This document shows positions 37,482-44,366 of a stretch of 64,000 bases of DNA, piece by piece. Origin of the DNA: Pseudoalteromonas undina (GTDB taxonomy: Bacteria > Pseudomonadota > Gammaproteobacteria > Enterobacterales > Alteromonadaceae); assembly GCF_000238275.3 (NCBI RefSeq), contig NZ_AHCF03000003.1:1116001-1180000 (forward strand), given 5' to 3'. The stretch's first letter is position 1, and each line of letters starts with the position of its first letter. The position numbers were made by a program, and so were the translations under genes. A model generated the notes under the pieces. The model did no database searches and was not told the DNA's origin. It saw only the letters and a program-made list of their open reading frames with translations.

Positions 37482-38303
37482 TTAAAGCGCTGTTGCGGCT
37501 TTCATCTCGGTTACAAATGTTTTTAATTGTGTGGTCATTGCATTTAAATCATTTAGGTTTGCTTCAATGATTTTTACTACTGCAGAACCTGAAATAGCAC
37601 CCGCAGCACCGGCTTTAAGCGCAGCTTTTACATCATCAGGTGTTGAAATACCAAAGCCTAATAACGCAGGCGCACTGTGGTACTCTTGTAAGCGCGAAAC
37701 CACGTGTGTTGCAGGCATTTGTGCTTTAGTATCGGTGCCTGTTACCCCTGCACGAGACAGTAAGTAAGTGTAACCGCGACCGTACGATGCGCACTCACGC
37801 AACGTATCGTCACTGGCGTTCGGCGTAGCGATAAATATCGGGTCAATACCGTTTGCCATGGCGGCTTTTCTAAACATTTTAGACTCGTGTAATGGCACAT
37901 CAGCCACTAAAATAGAGTCAACGCCTACTGCTTTTGCATCAGTGTAAAACTTTTCTAAGCCACGTTTAAATATTAAGTTTGAATACAATAATAAACCAAT
38001 TGGGATATCGGCATTGTACTGGCGTATTTCTTTAATAATATCAAAACAATCTTGTGTATTAATGTGCTCATCTAAAGCACGAATATTGGCCTTTTGAATA
38101 ACAGGGCCGTCGGCAATCGGATCTGAAAACGGAATACCTAGCTCTAGTCCATCTGCGCCGCCATCGATTAAGCTTTTAATAATTTCAATGCTTTGCGCTT
38201 TACCCGGATCGCCAATAGTCACAAACGGTACAAATGCGCCTTGGTTTTGCTCTTTTAGTGCTGCAAACATTTGTCCGTAACGGTCAGTTTTTACTTGGCT
38301 CAT
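37482..38303 (-). CDS. trpA: tryptophan synthase alpha subunit
   Basis: A 273-residue TIM-barrel enzyme that splits indole-3-glycerol phosphate to indole and glyceraldehyde 3-phosphate and hands indole to TrpB. The catalytic pair is E54 in [10 protein letters not shown] and D65 in IADGP. The phosphate site GFGIS and GAISGSAVV are present. The ATG overlaps the trpB stop by four bases (ATGA), coupling the two subunits. It is the last gene of the trp operon and a strong terminator follows. Length and motifs are normal. Confidence 0.96.
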
Positions 38304-39484
38304 AATTGACCTTCCTCTGATAATACCTTGTGTACGTGGGCTAAATCTTTATCGCCACGACCACTTAAATTAATAACAATAATACTGTCCTGCGTTTGCT
38401 CTTCTGCATATTCGAGGGCGTAGGCTAGCGCATGACTTGATTCTAGTGCCGGAATAATACCTTCGTGCTTTGCCAGTGCTTGAAAGGCATCAAGTGCTTT
38501 GGTGTCGGTAATGCCTACATATTGAGCACGGCCAGTTTCGTGCAAAAAGGCATGTTGAGGGCCAACTGCGGGATAATCTAATCCCGCCGATACAGAGTAA
38601 GACTCTTCAATTTGGCCATCTGTATTTTGCATAATATAAGTGTAAGTACCGTGTAAAATACCTTTAGTGCCTTTACAGATGGTTGCGCCATGTTCGTGCG
38701 TGTCTAACCCTTTACCTGCAGGTTCAACGCCAATAAGCTTAACGCTTGGCTCGTCAATAAAATCAGTAAACATACCAATAGCATTGGAGCCACCACCTAC
38801 ACACGCAATAACCGCATCAGGCAAACGGCCTTCGGCTTTAAGTACTTGTTGTTTTGCTTCTTCACCAATTATTTTTTGATATTCACGTACAATTGTTGGA
38901 AAAGGGTGAGGGCCCGCGGCTGTACCTAAAAGGTAATGAGCCTCTTGATAATTTGCTGACCAGTCACGCAATGCCTCATTAACCGCATCTTTTAGTGTGC
39001 CCGAGCCTGCCGTTACTGGAATAACTTCAGCGCCCATGAGTTTCATTCTGAATACATTTGGCTGTTGGCGTTCAACATCTTTTGCACCCATGTAAATACG
39101 GCATTTTAAGCCAAGTAATGCACAGGCAAGTGCAGTGGCTACACCATGTTGGCCGGCGCCGGTTTCTGCTATGACTTCTTTTTTACCCATGCGTTTGGTA
39201 AGCAGTGCTTGGCCTAATACTTGGTTTGTTTTGTGCGCACCACCGTGGAGTAAATCTTCACGCTTTAAGTACAGTTTTACTTTTGGGTTTTTAACTAAGT
39301 TACGCGTTAACGTAAGCGGCGTAGGGCGACCCGCATACTCGTTAAGTAATTTACTTAGCTCTGCCTGAAACTCAGGATCTTTTTGTGCTTTATTAAATTC
39401 GTTTTCTAACTGCTTAAGCGCAGGGACAAGCAGTTCCGGTACAAACATACCGCCAAACTCGCCAAAATAAGCTGGATTTTGCAT
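38300..39484 (-). CDS. trpB: tryptophan synthase beta subunit
   Basis: A 394-residue PLP enzyme that joins indole and serine to tryptophan. The cofactor lysine is K85 in HGGAHKTNQ, the glutamate in AETGAGQHG is the catalytic acid, and [10 protein letters not shown] binds the PLP phosphate. The ATG at 39484 ([12 protein letters not shown]) is chosen because GAGG lies six bases upstream and homologues start here; an in-frame TTG-type extension to 39520 would run into trpCF. Seven bases separate it from trpCF and it overlaps trpA by four. Confidence 0.96.
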
Positions 39485-39491
39485 TTTAACC

Positions 39492-40856
39492 TCAATAATT
39501 TCTGATACTTGTAAAAGCATGATGTAGTTTGTTTGCGCACTTTTTACCAGGAGACTGCTCTACACCTGAATTTAAATCAAGTCCTAAAGCTCCGTGATAG
39601 AGGGCATCGCTAATATTGTCTGGGTTTAAGCCGCCAGCAAGCATAAATGGGGTGGTCGCATCACGCAGTACCGACCAATCAAATGTTTTACCTGTGCCAC
39701 CCGCGTGTGAATCACTGTGGGTGTCGTATAAATGGCGATCTGCGCCTGCTACGGGTTGTGGTAAAACATCTTTTATTGCCTGTGCTTTCCAAATTTGGCA
39801 ATTACGTGGTAATTCACTACGTAATGACGCAATGTATTGTTCATCTTCTTGGCCATGTAATTGAACGGCTGATAATTTAAGTTGTTTAGCGTGTTCAGCC
39901 ACATCAGGTATAGCAGCGTTAACAAATACGCCAACAAATTTTAAAGGCGCACTTTGACTGATTTCTTTAGCGCAATCTAAATCAACAAAGCGGGGTGATT
40001 TAGGGTAAAAAATCAACCCGCCATACACAGCGCCATTGCTATAGGCTGCAATAGCATCTTGATTGCGGGTTAAGCCGCACACTTTGTTTTCGCCTAATAT
40101 AACGCGACGACATGCTTGTATTAGATCAGCTTCAGCCATTAATGAGCTGCCAATTAAAAAGCCATTACATAAAGGGGCTAAGCGTTTTACATCTTGATGG
40201 GTGTAAATACCTGACTCAGAAATAACCACTTTATTTTCAGGAATAAGTTTACGTAGTCGTTCTGTGGTGGCTAAGTCGGTGCTTAAATCACGCAAATCTC
40301 GATTATTAATTCCAATTATTTGTGCATTGAGTGCCAGCGCACGGTGAACTTCTTCTTCGTTACTTACCTCAGTTAATACTGACATATTTAATGAGTCGGC
40401 CACTTCATGCAGTGTTTTATATTGCTGATCGTCAAGCACAGATAGCATCAGTAAAATAGCGTCGCCGCCATAAAGACGTGCCATATAAACTTGGTACTCA
40501 TCAATAAAAAAGTCTTTACAAATAAGCGGCTGTTCAACTTGGCTACGTACAAATTCAAGGTAATCAAAGCTGCCTTGAAAGTACTTTTCGTCAGTTAACA
40601 CACTCATACAAGTGGCATACTGCTTATACGCTTGGGTGATTTCTGTTAAATCAAATGGCTGACGAATCAACCCCTTAGAGGGCGATGCTTTTTTGCATTC
40701 TAAAATAAACTGCGTACCAGATGCTGCCAGTGCTTTGTAAAAACTACGCTCAGTCGGTTTGGCTTGGTGCTTAAAGCTATCTAGTGGGCGTGCAGCCTTA
40801 CGCTCGATTAGTTCTATTTTTTTATCAGCAATAATTTTGTCTAATACATTAGCCAT
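39492..40856 (-). CDS. trpCF: bifunctional indole-3-glycerol-phosphate synthase / phosphoribosylanthranilate isomerase
   Basis: A 454-residue fusion of two TIM barrels. Residues 1-255 are TrpC, with [14 protein letters not shown] and [31 protein letters not shown] strands, [14 protein letters not shown] and [13 protein letters not shown]. Residues about 258-454 are TrpF, with [13 protein letters not shown] in place of the usual KICG start, FVGVFVN and GGLNPDN. It catalyses two successive steps between phosphoribosyl anthranilate and indoleglycerol phosphate. The fusion is usual in gammaproteobacteria. The ATG overlaps the trpD stop by eight bases. Confidence 0.95.
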
Positions 40857-41886
40857 GACTTACCTCAATAATTGCATTTAATGTGTCCATGGCCTTGCCT
40901 GAACGTAATAAAGAGTGTGTTATTTGTGCACCTTGTTTTAACGACTCTGCTTGGCCGGTTAAGTACAGCAATGCGGCCACATTAACAACAATTGCGGCGT
41001 TGTGTGCCTCAGTGCCTTTACCTTGTAAAATAGCAAGGCTGGCGTTTGCATTGTATTGTGGGCCTTCACCGGCTAATTGTTCAAGTGAATAGTTTGCAAG
41101 GTCAAAATCACTTGGACTGAGTGTGTACTGAGTAATTTTACCATTATTAAGCTCTACAACCTGTGTTGGGCCATGTAAGGCAATTTCGTCAGTACCAGAG
41201 CCGTGCACTATCATAGCGCGTTTAGTCCCTAGAGTATTAAGCGTTTGTGCCATTGGCAGACATAAAGACTCATCGTACACGCCGAGTAATTGCACCTCAG
41301 GAGCGGCTGGATTAGCCAGTGGCCCAAGAATATTAAAAATGGTTCGGGTTTTTAAACTGGTACGCACGTTCATCGCATGGCGTACCCCGCTGTGGTAGTG
41401 CGGTGCAAATAAAAAGGTAAAATTTGTGCTGTCTAAACAACGAGCAGCGACCTCTGGGGTCATATCGATATTGATCCCCAGTGCTTTGAGCAAGTCAGCA
41501 GAGCCAGAATTACTCGACACGCTTCGATTGCCATGTTTTACCATATTAATACCTGCCGCGGCCGCCACAATCGCGGCCGTGGTACTAATATTTATAGTGT
41601 TTGAACCATCGCCACCGGTGCCACAGCTATCAGCAAGTAGTGTTTTATTAGTGGTAAAGGCAACGGCATTTTCACGCATTGAAGCGGCAGCACCGGCAAT
41701 CTCATCGCTTACTTCACCTTTCATTTTAAGGCCAATAAGTAACGCAGAGAGTTCAATGTCGCTCATATTACCTTGCATAATTTGATCAAATAGCGATTTT
41801 GCTTGCACGTAACTAAGTGACTGCTTTGTGATGATGTGCTCAATGGCGTGTTGAACATTAAGCGGGCTGTGTAATTGATTAGTCAT
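40849..41886 (-). CDS. trpD: anthranilate phosphoribosyltransferase
   Basis: A 345-residue enzyme that couples anthranilate with phosphoribosyl pyrophosphate. The PRPP-binding DSCGTGGDGSNTINIST (residues about 86-102), KHGNRSVSSNSGSADLLKALG and NILGPLANPA motifs are complete. The ATG at 41886 has AGGA six bases upstream and is preferred to the GTG at 41907 that would lie inside trpG. Unlike in E. coli, it is separate from trpG, the ten-base gap between them holding the ribosome site. Confidence 0.95.
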   Translation of the reverse strand: MTNQLHSPLNVQHAIEHIITKQSLSYVQAKSLFDQIMQGNMSDIELSALLIGLKMKGEVSDEIAGAAASMRENAVAFTTNKTLLADSCGTGGDGSNTINISTTAAIVAAAAGINMVKHGNRSVSSNSGSADLLKALGINIDMTPEVAARCLDSTNFTFLFAPHYHSGVRHAMNVRTSLKTRTIFNILGPLANPAAPEVQLLGVYDESLCLPMAQTLNTLGTKRAMIVHGSGTDEIALHGPTQVVELNNGKITQYTLSPSDFDLANYSLEQLAGEGPQYNANASLAILQGKGTEAHNAAIVVNVAALLYLTGQAESLKQGAQITHSLLRSGKAMDTLNAIIEVSHG

Positions 41887-41896
41887 AATGTTCCTT

Positions 41897-42499
41897 TTAT
41901 TTGGCACGTGTTAAATAAGCAACGCTTTGCTGTAGTAGCATTGCGCCATTGGGCGTTAAAATTGACTCTGGGTGGAATTGATAGCCCAGTACATTGTCTT
42001 GATGATGATAAATAGCCATTGGTATATCTTGGTATTTGGCAATAACGGCTAAGTTATCAGGTACTTTTGTTGCCATTAAAGAATGATAACGTGCCACTGG
42101 CATGGTGCTTCCCATACCGTAAAATACAGGGTGATCATTTAAATTTATAATTGATGACTTACCATGTACGGTTTCACCAGCGTGACCGACTACTCCGCCA
42201 TAGCTTTGTGTTAGCGCTTGTTGGCCTAAACAAATACCTAGCATTGGAAATTGGCCCTTACACAGGTTAATTAACTCCATAAGGCAGCCTGCATCGCTAG
42301 GTGCACCAGGGCCTGGTGATAATACCAGCAGTACTTGTCCACGCTCTGCCTGCATTTTTTCGAATATGATCTCTGCGCTAATGTTGTTTCGGTAAACTAC
42401 TAACTCAGCACCTAGCATTGTTAGCTCATCAACAAGGTTGTAGCTAAATGAGTCAAAGTTATCTAAAAAGTAAATTTTAATAGGGTGTGCTTCACTCAT
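41897..42499 (-). CDS. trpG: anthranilate synthase glutamine amidotransferase subunit
   Basis: A 200-residue class I glutamine amidotransferase giving ammonia to TrpE. The triad is C90 in GICLGQQAL, H176 and E178 in GYQFHPESI; the oxyanion part SPGPGAPSDAG is intact. It begins one base after the trpE stop, and its ribosome site lies inside trpE, so the two subunits are made together. Confidence 0.95.
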   Translation of the reverse strand: MSEAHPIKIYFLDNFDSFSYNLVDELTMLGAELVVYRNNISAEIIFEKMQAERGQVLLVLSPGPGAPSDAGCLMELINLCKGQFPMLGICLGQQALTQSYGGVVGHAGETVHGKSSIINLNDHPVFYGMGSTMPVARYHSLMATKVPDNLAVIAKYQDIPMAIYHHQDNVLGYQFHPESILTPNGAMLLQQSVAYLTRAK

Positions 42500-42500
42500 T

Positions 42501-44069
42501 TTATACTGCCTTATACGTCGATTTAATCGCGGTGATCACCGCTTGGGCTTTAGCGCGCGTTTCGTTTGCCTCTGACATTGGATCTGAATCGAATACAACC
42601 CCAGCACCAGCCTGCACATAAGCAATATTATTTTTAACAAAGGCGGCACGAATAACAATACAGCTGTCCATGGCACCGTCACCGGTTAAATAGCCAACTG
42701 CGCCACCATAGCTACCGCGACGTTTGCCTTCAGTTTTGCGCACTAATTCTGCCGCACGCACTTTGGGTGCCCCCACTAAGGTACCCATATTCATACAGGC
42801 TTGATAAGCATGCAGGGCATCTAGTTCGGGTTTTAATTTTCCAACTACGCGTGATACTAAATGCATTACTTGTGAATAACGGTCTACTTTTAATAGCTCT
42901 TTGGCATGGCGAGTACCAGGCACGCTAATACGAGCAACGTCGTTACGTGCTAAATCAACCAGCATTAAGTGCTCGGCACGTTCTTTTTGATCGTTTCTGA
43001 GCTCAAGTTCAATACGGCTATCTAAATCGGGATTAATTTGTCCATTTGCAAACTTACCCCGTGAACGTGTACCTGCAATCGGATAAACCTCAACTTGTTG
43101 AGACTTAACCTCATACTTAAGCGCAGACTCTGGAGAAGCGCCAAATAATGAGAAATCTTCATCACGCATGTAAAACATGTACGGGCTTGGATTTTGCTTT
43201 TTAAGCTGGCTATAAGCATGTAATGAGTCAGGGCACGGCAATGAGAAAGTACGAGAGGGCACCACTTGAAAAATATCGCCATCAACTATGTGTTGCTTAA
43301 GTTTTATCACTTGTTGGCAATATTGCTCATCACTAATATCAACATTTACAGGGCAGTCACCTGCTTGGCTTGGGGCACTAAAGTCTGCGGCGTGGTCGCA
43401 TAATGTATTCAGGCGCTCTAATTGTTTGCCCACTTCAAAACAGTTTGCGTGAACATCTGGGCCATTAAACACATTACCAATTAACTCGGTTGTTTGTTTT
43501 TGGTGATCAATAACAACCAGTGTTTCGGCTAAATAAAATACGTAGTCTGGGCAGGTATTTTCACCGTCAGGTACATCGGATAGTTGTTCAAAGTTAGCCA
43601 CCATGTCGTAGGCAAATACACCGCCTAAAAACACTGAGAACGGATTGTCAGTGGTGCTTCTAATACTATTTAAACAAGTGTGTAGTGCACTAAAAGCGTT
43701 ATCGGCAATCAGTTTGCTAGCTTGGTCAATGGTGTCATCGACTGGGTGATACTCAAGTGTGAGTGTGGTATCGGTTAACTGTGAAGCGCAGTTTTGTACA
43801 TTAGCCTGCAAATAGTTAAGTAGTTGTTGGCCGTTGTTTGATTGTGCACTGATGCTCACTTGGTTGCCTTGGCAAACAATACGCAATGCACAATCAACCA
43901 GTATTAAGCTTTTTACGCTATCTTTTGAATCTATTTCTGCAGATTCAAGCAATAGTGAGTTAGGTTTATCAAGTGCCGCATACAAGGCAAGTGGGCTACT
44001 TATGTAGTCTCGTACTTGCGTTATGCTTGTCACTTCACCTGGTGTTGTTGTTATATGACTAAAAATCAA
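42501..44069 (-). CDS. trpE: anthranilate synthase component I
   Basis: A 522-residue chorismate-utilising enzyme, first step of tryptophan synthesis. The feedback-inhibition motif LLES is present at residues 40-43, so the enzyme is expected to be inhibited by tryptophan. Catalytic-domain landmarks are YPIAGTRSRGK, DLARNDVARI and GSYGGAVGYLTGDG. The only possible start in frame is TTG at 44069; a stop lies just upstream, and AGGGG seven bases before the TTG is a plausible ribosome site. It is the first structural gene after the double attenuator. Confidence 0.94.
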   Translation of the reverse strand: MIFSHITTTPGEVTSITQVRDYISSPLALYAALDKPNSLLLESAEIDSKDSVKSLILVDCALRIVCQGNQVSISAQSNNGQQLLNYLQANVQNCASQLTDTTLTLEYHPVDDTIDQASKLIADNAFSALHTCLNSIRSTTDNPFSVFLGGVFAYDMVANFEQLSDVPDGENTCPDYVFYLAETLVVIDHQKQTTELIGNVFNGPDVHANCFEVGKQLERLNTLCDHAADFSAPSQAGDCPVNVDISDEQYCQQVIKLKQHIVDGDIFQVVPSRTFSLPCPDSLHAYSQLKKQNPSPYMFYMRDEDFSLFGASPESALKYEVKSQQVEVYPIAGTRSRGKFANGQINPDLDSRIELELRNDQKERAEHLMLVDLARNDVARISVPGTRHAKELLKVDRYSQVMHLVSRVVGKLKPELDALHAYQACMNMGTLVGAPKVRAAELVRKTEGKRRGSYGGAVGYLTGDGAMDSCIVIRAAFVKNNIAYVQAGAGVVFDSDPMSEANETRAKAQAVITAIKSTYKAV

Positions 44070-44082
44070 ACCTCATCCCCTA

Positions 44083-44120
44083 AAAAATAAAACCCCGCAA
44101 TGCTAAGCAGTGCGGGGTTT
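44083..44120 (-). terminator. trp attenuator terminator 2 (proximal to trpE)
   Basis: Stem AAACCCCGCA (44090-44099) / TGCGGGGTTT (44111-44120) with inner TGC/GCA pairing, followed on the minus strand by TTTTATTTTTT. It lies 43 bases after the second leader peptide and about 14 bases before trpE. The segment AGCGGG just after the leader stop can pair with CCCGC of this stem, a plausible antiterminator. Confidence 0.9.
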
Positions 44121-44162
44121 GAATAACGATGTCTAAATTATAGATAGACCATTACCGTCCCG

Positions 44163-44213
44163 CTATGCCAAGCGCCACCACCAATGATGTGTAAGAGTGT
44201 TTACGTTATTCAT
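44163..44213 (-). CDS. trpL: trp leader peptide 2
   Basis: A 16-codon open frame reading MNNVNTLTHHWWWRLA, with three consecutive Trp codons, preceded by AGGAATT about eight bases upstream. A terminator follows at 44120. This is the textbook arrangement of ribosome-mediated attenuation: stalling at the Trp codons should favour the antiterminator. Codons 2-4 (GAATAACG) are exactly complementary to CGTTATTC just before the terminator (44121-44128), giving another competing structure. Confidence 0.9.
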   Translation of the reverse strand: MNNVNTLTHHWWWRLA

Positions 44214-44253
44214 GTTTTTAATTCCTGTTAATCTTGTATTGCAAAATTTAGTG

Positions 44254-44280
44254 ATAAAAAAACCCGCATGGTAGCGGGTT
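44254..44280 (-). terminator. trp attenuator terminator 1 (promoter-proximal)
   Basis: Stem AACCCGC (44261-44267) / GCGGGTT (44274-44280), loop of six bases, followed on the minus strand by a run of seven T. It lies 41 bases after the first leader peptide stop and 40 bases before the second leader start, so it would stop transcripts before the second attenuator. Confidence 0.9.
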
Positions 44281-44321
44281 AGAATTTTTTGTTTAGACAC
44301 GACAATTCATCACCCTTTGTT

Positions 44322-44366
44322 TTAAGAGTGCCACCACCAGATGATGTTTTGAATTGTATTTTTCAT
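44322..44366 (-). CDS. trp leader peptide 1
   Basis: A 14-codon frame reading MKNTIQNIIWWWHS, again with three Trp codons in a row. Its ribosome site is weak (AAGAATAA). The sequence ACAATTCA inside it (44350-44357) is exactly complementary to TGAATTGT after its stop (44302-44309), a likely 1:2 pairing of an attenuator. The peptide and its terminator differ in sequence from the second set, so this is an old duplication or independent unit, not a copy error. Confidence 0.88.
   Translation of the reverse strand: MKNTIQNIIWWWHS

Follow-up and report, generated by a model that had tools for sequence, protein, structure and literature searches.

The leader of the trp operon in Pseudoalteromonas undina most likely comprises two ribosome-mediated transcription attenuators arranged in series, both of which would read charged tRNA-Trp; we put the probability of this reading at roughly 85%. 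All positions below refer to the window, i.e. the whole 64,000-nucleotide stretch of DNA that was analyzed, in which the complete array is confined to 44430-44069 of the minus strand. Its order is promoter P1, leader 1, terminator 1, leader 2, terminator 2 and trpEGD(CF)BA, the array ending at the TTG start codon of trpE at 44069. P1 (44401..44430), recognized from the sequence together with a genus-wide pattern, consists of TTGACA (44430-44425) and TTTACT (44406-44401) separated by 18 nt. Leader peptide 1, MKNTIQNIIWWWHS (44322..44366, stop codon TAA), has its Trp codons at 44339-44331 and is followed by terminator 1 (44254..44280), a hairpin at 44280-44261 with a T run reaching 44254 (-11.7 kcal/mol by RNAfold). 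The sequence AGGAA (44222..44226) is the likely ribosome-binding site of leader peptide 2, MNNVNTLTHHWWWRLA (44163..44213, stop codon TAG), whose Trp codons lie at 44183-44175. Behind it stands terminator 2 (44082..44120), with a hairpin at 44120-44090 and a T run to 44082 (-19.5 kcal/mol); a simple scan for terminators detected terminator 1 and missed terminator 2 because the stem of the latter has a mismatch. The first gene of the operon, trpE (42501..44069), was identified by a match to anthranilate synthase component 1 of 772 bits. Closely spaced behind it on the same strand (37482..42499) are trpG (41897-42499, which passes only the trpG/pabA subfamily cut-off), trpD (40849-41907), trpCF (39492-40856), trpB (38300-39520) and trpA (37482-38303), while a divergent gene for RNase RNM lies upstream of the locus. 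Both units are thus placed before genes of Trp biosynthesis, and each has a leader ORF with a Trp run and an intrinsic terminator soon after its stop codon.

Each element of the original prediction, which had proposed two attenuators before trpE with three consecutive Trp codons per leader, was recovered base by base at its place. The two 8-base complementarities that it had noted are likewise exact, namely acaattca/tgaattgt in unit 1 (44357-44350 with 44309-44302) and gaataacg/cgttattc in unit 2 (44211-44204 with 44128-44121). The antiterminator pairings proper, which it did not contain, emerged from RNAfold. Antiterminator 1 (44276..44315) pairs GGGT at 44315-44312 with ACCC at 44279-44276, and GAATT at 44308-44304 with AATTC at 44286-44282. 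Antiterminator 2 (44112..44163) has a basal helix of GCGGG at 44163-44159 with CCCGC at 44116-44112, and an apical helix formed by TAATG/CGTTA (44154-44150 with 44128-44124) and GTCTA/TAGAC (44149-44145 with 44135-44131). Two further features of the locus were observed in passing. The stretch after the T run of terminator 1 (44224-44253) contains TATATCTAAATTTT, which with variants is fairly conserved across Pseudoalteromonas and is perhaps an AU-rich aid to the translation of leader 2. The TTG start of trpE sits behind a conserved GGAATGAGG (44069-44080), the start being GTG in four relatives (L023, L032, L035 and L038) and ATG in two (L039 and L041); a weak trpE start may constitute a further brake.

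As a sequence, TGGTGGTGG occurs five times in the window against 0.26 expected from shuffles, with three of the five occurrences lying elsewhere. A covariance model built from 48 units, including both units of the window, returned two matches of about 63 bits in the P. undina genome, both at the trp leader, with the next match at 33.7 bits. The six next-best matches contained neither TGGTGG nor a short Trp-rich ORF on either strand, and further trp-type leaders in this genome were accordingly rejected. The Rfam Trp_leader family (RF00513) scored 32.0 bits at unit 1 (E 1.4e-4), below its gathering score of 41 bits, and 22.1 bits at unit 2, no better than the unrelated rnk_pseudo (25.3 bits); no Rfam family, the T-box included, reached its gathering score anywhere in the window. 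By score, neither unit counts as a member of RF00513, and both are predicted to work like one.

Strong evidence that the arrangement goes beyond chance comes from its conservation across the genus. A scan confirmed 578 relatives of this TrpE, the best 80 of which were kept; 44 of the 80 are named Pseudoalteromonas, and a comparison of their leaders found the order of two leaders and two terminators in 43 of these 44 loci, or 44 of 45 counting the window; terminator 1 of L024 and L027, missed by one automated tally, was counted from direct reading of the leader. The two units differ in sequence, and the pair is present in 43 other assemblies, in agreement with the earlier view that it is not an assembly duplication; an assembly artefact was thus rejected. 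In all 44 tandem loci leader 1 contains WWW, and in 42 of them leader 2 has WWW or WWWW (the others being WGW in L008 and WW in L013), the Trp run of unit 2 being slightly decayed in these two and in G098 (MNNGLTHTHCWWRLH). The one exception in the genus, Pseudoalteromonas sp. NBT06-2 (L036, 2838-2959), has a single Trp leader, behind which two terminators stand 9 nt from each other. In a trpE tree it branches inside the tandem strains, and it therefore looks like a loss of the part between the terminators. In this tree "tandem" denotes any second Trp leader, a label that covers six Rheinheimera-type loci whose second terminator is not clear, and the tandem L046 is labelled single; its count of 6 changes was not used.

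The two units look to be carried by one transcript from P1, judging from the sequence of the leaders. The pattern TTGAC[AT]-17/18-TTTACT precedes leader 1 in 43 of the 44 tandem loci and was located by alignment in the remaining one (L039); a sigma-70 scan did not list P1 because it demands an A at position 2 of the -10 element. A promoter between the units, such that each transcript would carry only one attenuator, had been named beforehand as an observation that would tell against the serial arrangement. If two promoters served one attenuator each, the units would be alternatives rather than successive switches, and a weak promoter-like site does lie between them in L002 and L018. These are the only two such sites between the stop codon of leader 1 and the start codon of leader 2 in the 44 loci, against 8.4 expected from mononucleotide shuffles. 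Moreover, the gap from the stem of terminator 1 to the second start codon is short and variable in length (median 28 nt), and P1 is conserved. An internal promoter was hence rejected, and the two-promoter arrangement is scarcely credible.

The composition of the leaders bears on what the two units sense. It could be supposed that they answer different signals, for instance charged tRNA-Trp in one and translation initiation, or the His and Arg codons of leader 2 (HHWWWR), in the other, and the leaders do differ outside WWW while the terminators of unit 2 are the stronger (median -19.2 against -12.9 kcal/mol for unit 1). However, the genus does not preserve these His and Arg codons, as is apparent from variants such as HSWWWRLN, SSWWWCLA, TIWWWWMP and IQWWWFL. 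The Trp run alone is common to both leaders, which makes a single signal likelier and two signals very improbable. The same alignments show wide variation of the leader residues within the genus, the Trp run and the positions immediately following it excepted. This speaks against a function of the peptides themselves, and thereby against the idea that the second copy is kept for short attenuated RNAs or peptides acting in trans. Such an action has a precedent in peTrpL of Sinorhizobium (PMC7298713) and is nevertheless highly improbable here. Sensing of charged tRNA-Trp by both units thus remains the reading that we favor.

To model the switching, a ribosome was placed on the first Trp codon, and the RNA that it leaves exposed, down to the last base of the terminator's 5' arm, was folded; the folding was repeated with the ribosome at the stop codon, using an admittedly crude ribosome mask. 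In the window, antiterminator 1 (RNA free from Trp1 +15) folds at -10.2 kcal/mol against a shuffle mean of -4.5, with 3 of 100 shuffles as stable; only its energy stands out, the count of paired terminator bases being unremarkable and reached by 48 of 100 shuffles. Antiterminator 2 folds at -18.9 kcal/mol against a shuffle mean of -9.8, with 1 of 100 as stable. With the ribosome at the stop codon no pairs to the terminator arm remain in either unit. In silico, therefore, both units of the window possess an antiterminator that is exclusive with the terminator and is freed by a stalled ribosome. Across the genus (42 unit-1 and 43 unit-2 cases, with L046 left out altogether and unit 1 of L022 dropped because the script picked a wrong hairpin), no more than 5 of 100 shuffles matched the stability of the antiterminator in 39/42 unit-1 and 29/43 unit-2 cases. 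With the ribosome at the stop codon, at most one pair to the terminator arm was left in 41/42 and 29/43 cases, respectively. The other 14 unit-2 cases retained 3 to 6 such pairs, so that unit 2 switches less cleanly in silico. A copy-length test reached 0.05 in 33/43 unit-1 and only 8/44 unit-2 cases. In 134 of 220 units the post-stop segment fits the 3' arm of the unit's own terminator more closely than it fits the arms from other genomes, a figure that includes kinship and comes from a set in which terminator 2 is missing for much of Pseudoalteromonas.

Comparative support for an antiterminator was obtained for unit 2. Among its 17 closest sequences (16 distinct), 99.2% of the cells of antiterminator 2 pair, compared with 98.0% for terminator 2. 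The pairing percentage and the covariation score of antiterminator 2 exceed those of all 500 shuffles, the score being inflated by kinship, and its doubly changed pairs and pair types do not exceed shuffles. In its apical helix 98.8% of cells pair, and as this helix plays no part in the terminator, its upkeep speaks for antiterminator 2 itself. These results bear on the possibility that only one unit regulates, the other being a vestige or an ordinary terminator behind a nonfunctional leader. The weaker fold test of unit 2, the erosion of its Trp run in the three genomes mentioned above and the retention of both terminators in L036, which lacks one leader, would fit such a condition. A dead unit should decay, however, whereas leader, Trp run and terminator of both units have been kept over 44 loci, together with the apical helix in the sequences compared. 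Hence, we regard regulation by one unit as unlikely, and anatomy, conservation and folding jointly give good support to a serial pair of complete trp attenuators.

In the classical form of attenuation, stalling of the ribosome exposes a post-stop segment, and this segment then pairs with the terminator's 5' arm. Applied to this locus, RNA polymerase would start at P1 and make leader 1. Under shortage of Trp-tRNA the ribosome would stall on WWW, so that the post-stop segment could base-pair with terminator 1 at its 5' arm and the polymerase would read on. With Trp-tRNA plentiful it would reach the stop codon and cover the segment, terminator 1 would form and the RNA would end near 44254. Transcripts passing terminator 1 would meet the same test at leader 2 and terminator 2, where those that are stopped would end near 44083. 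A full-length trp mRNA would thus require the passage of both switches, which would both be open at low Trp. Since both must be passed, the leak at high Trp would approximate the product of the two leaks, so that a leak fraction b per switch would become about b squared. On this arithmetic, the multiplicative and steeper response that had been proposed is plausible.

Beyond the genus, the 36 non-Pseudoalteromonas loci among the best 80 included 2 with a complete second unit (Algicola, L045, and Rheinheimera mesophila, L071), 2 with a second Trp leader and a weak hairpin (L060, L062), 4 with a second Trp leader and no terminator (L047, L050, L063, L070) and 28 with a single attenuator; the distant upstream Trp ORFs of L055 and L079, put down to chance, were left out of this count. 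The covariance model was also run on 394 genomes of the order, where most matches at E up to 1 were chance terminators, and 60 stretches were hand-picked from the strongest matches listed, which do not form an even sample. Further loci came from searches with TrpE or DAHP synthase (family codes such as f1 and f7 are labels of this analysis). From 40 genomes of f7 we recovered 30 loci, in 6 of which the script found no gene start; the remaining 24 comprise 17 with two Trp leaders each followed by a terminator, 6 partial cases and 1 single attenuator. Complete pairs were also seen in f14 (L255, L260) and f15 (L156, L171, L257, L259), and a less certain one in f13 (L170), where the frame of the second leader runs on through the terminator. 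In f7, f13, f14 and f15 the first gene is DAHP-synthase-like by its N-terminus, one f7 example having been checked by NCBIfam.

The original prediction had further suggested that the tandem pair may replace TrpR. No match to PF01371 was found in the P. undina genome, with E. coli as positive control, and in the family none of 196 genomes exceeded the Pfam cut-off (10 gave weak partial matches), whereas 177 of the 394 genomes of the order did, the matches listed lying in f2, f5, f6, f8, f10, f11 (in part), f18, f21, f26 and f27. Reading upstream of trpE in 30 TrpR-positive genomes, we found a single attenuator in 21, an attenuator together with a second WRW leader in 2 (f11), no leader in 7 and not one complete pair. 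Among 30 genomes from families without a TrpR match, 29 had a TrpE match. These divide into 5 with complete pairs (the one of f13 being whole only in L170), 8 whose second Trp ORF is not accompanied by a second terminator (L253 judged by eye via L108 of the same genome), 12 with single attenuators (the terminator of L256 is doubtful) and 4 unresolved. In these sequences, pairs appear to go with the lack of TrpR, yet genomes lacking TrpR often have just one attenuator, and the families are few and related. The single-attenuator relatives of the Alteromonas type belong to the same TrpR-less family as Pseudoalteromonas; hence a second attenuator was no necessary consequence of lacking TrpR, and what stands of the proposed replacement is a correlation. 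TrpR loss as the specific cause was rejected on the same ground. A published regulon survey (PMC5343134) reconstructs TrpR regulons in eight gammaproteobacterial lineages and places the trp operon of Shewanella outside them, under control of an attenuator.

Some indication of how the pair arose is provided by the early-branching L039 (T1lg88) and L041 (T1lg75), in which the two units agree at 52 and 49 of roughly 65 aligned positions, respectively, against a genus median of 44 (lowest 40). Both have WWWHS in both leaders, and the units of L039 have 30 identical bases surrounding the Trp codons. This similarity, a modest signal, hints at an old tandem duplication. The pair probably arose in TrpR-less lineages through duplication of an older single attenuator, or through addition of a second one beside it. 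In a tree of 82 TrpE proteins the Pseudoalteromonas pair stands far from f7, f13, f14 and f15, with at least five label changes forced by the starred branches; f4, f13 and f14 have long branches in this tree and f7 falls in two places. Given these distant positions, the pair is either old and often lost or arose more than once.

Second Trp leaders that lack a terminator were observed in further families. In 30 loci of f1 (L276-L305, e.g. L290), DAHP synthase or trpE is preceded by a short ORF for KVKSWFIWWLQPIYAG or a peptide closely similar to it. Its WFIWWLQP pattern gave matches in 12 of the 52 f1 genera (g2, g9, g13, g21, g25, g27, g30, g34, g39, g40, g41 and g52), or 31 of 196 genomes. 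Outside this pattern Lys, Tyr, Ala and Gly are constant across the 30 loci and Val is kept in 29; the codons for Tyr, Ala, Gly and Val vary synonymously, whereas in ordinary attenuator peptides the residues themselves vary. A Trp leader lies upstream in 27 of the 30 loci (21 with a terminator by a strict scan), a DAHP-synthase-like start lies 28 to 81 nt downstream in 19, and no terminator follows the peptide in any. The peptide has no NCBIfam or Pfam match and is possibly a Trp-reading peptide that arrests the ribosome. In the four f12 genomes (L238, L241, L244, L306) a second leader with Trp-Arg-Trp at or near its end (TGGCGATGG) lies upstream of trpE. In RNAfold models of L238 and its near copy L306 the WRW stretch pairs with the region of the trpE ribosome-binding site, and the same pairing is predicted in L241 despite several changed letters on both sides, while L244 folds otherwise. 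Of 300 mononucleotide shuffles, 4 were as stable as the hairpin of L241, 28 as those of L238 and L306, and 69 as that of L244, so that L241 alone stands out. The f12 leader may mask the trpE ribosome-binding site, which would make it a possible translational attenuator in series with the transcriptional one.

Comparable WRW ORFs without a clear second terminator lie between the attenuator and trpE in f25 (L092, L101, L157, L248, L250, L252), and similar ones were seen in f11 (L215, L216) and in Rheinheimera and one MAG (L047, L050, L060, L062, L063, L070). The pairing with the ribosome-binding site was not seen in the f11 and f25 folds. In f25 genus g76 the second ORF has about 44 residues with a conserved C-terminal half and ends next to the trpE start.

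Taken together, these observations allow a wider reading, which we hold tentatively and at somewhat less than even odds. Serial Trp sensing would be a general design of the TrpR-less lineages of the order, a second Trp leader having been added repeatedly before the first gene. The addition would be either an attenuator, as in Pseudoalteromonas, f7, f14 and f15, or a terminator-less device, such as the WRW leader of f12 and KVKSWFIWWLQPIYAG of f1, and the two elements together would rebuild the range and steepness that E. coli obtains from TrpR plus one attenuator.

Control of the E. coli trp operon combines one repressor with one attenuator. The Pseudoalteromonas locus resembles E. coli trpL (RF00513) in having a leader with a run of Trp codons and an antiterminator competing with a terminator before trpE; it differs in having two complete units and in that TrpR was not found. 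What we describe is the same RNA switch twice in a row, kept over a genus and recurring in distant families in which TrpR was not found. Should the locus behave as its parts suggest, repetition of one RNA switch can supply range and steepness, as in tandem riboswitches and T-boxes. T-boxes bind uncharged tRNA directly, whereas here a translating ribosome would read charged tRNA-Trp. Several switches reading Trp-tRNA in series before trp genes are nonetheless a shared feature, since PMC12452182 describes tandem T-box riboswitches in the trp operons of Firmicutes, with three in Streptococcus macedonicus. The mgtCBR leader of Salmonella, in which attenuation of one operon depends on two successive leader ORFs, is presented in PMC3641672 as a singular example of tandem attenuators that respond to different signals, ATP and proline; in the P. 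undina leader, by comparison, both ORFs have Trp runs and each unit ends in a U-tailed terminator of its own. Two terminators in series, one of them with a potential antiterminator, are also found in the rimP leader of several Gammaproteobacteria; the sections of PMC2965389 at hand do not describe it as an amino-acid leader-peptide system. In E. coli without TrpR the trp burst size falls gradually with tryptophan, while TrpR and attenuation together give switch-like transitions, as reported in a 2026 study (PMC13178558). Tandem units in TrpR-less bacteria offer a natural test of how steepness is regained. Among the open-licence papers listed by our searches, none reported tandem leader-peptide trp attenuators. 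Within those listings, trp attenuation, tandem T-boxes and the mgtCBR pair are the known elements, and repetition of a leader-peptide attenuator for a single amino acid did not appear.
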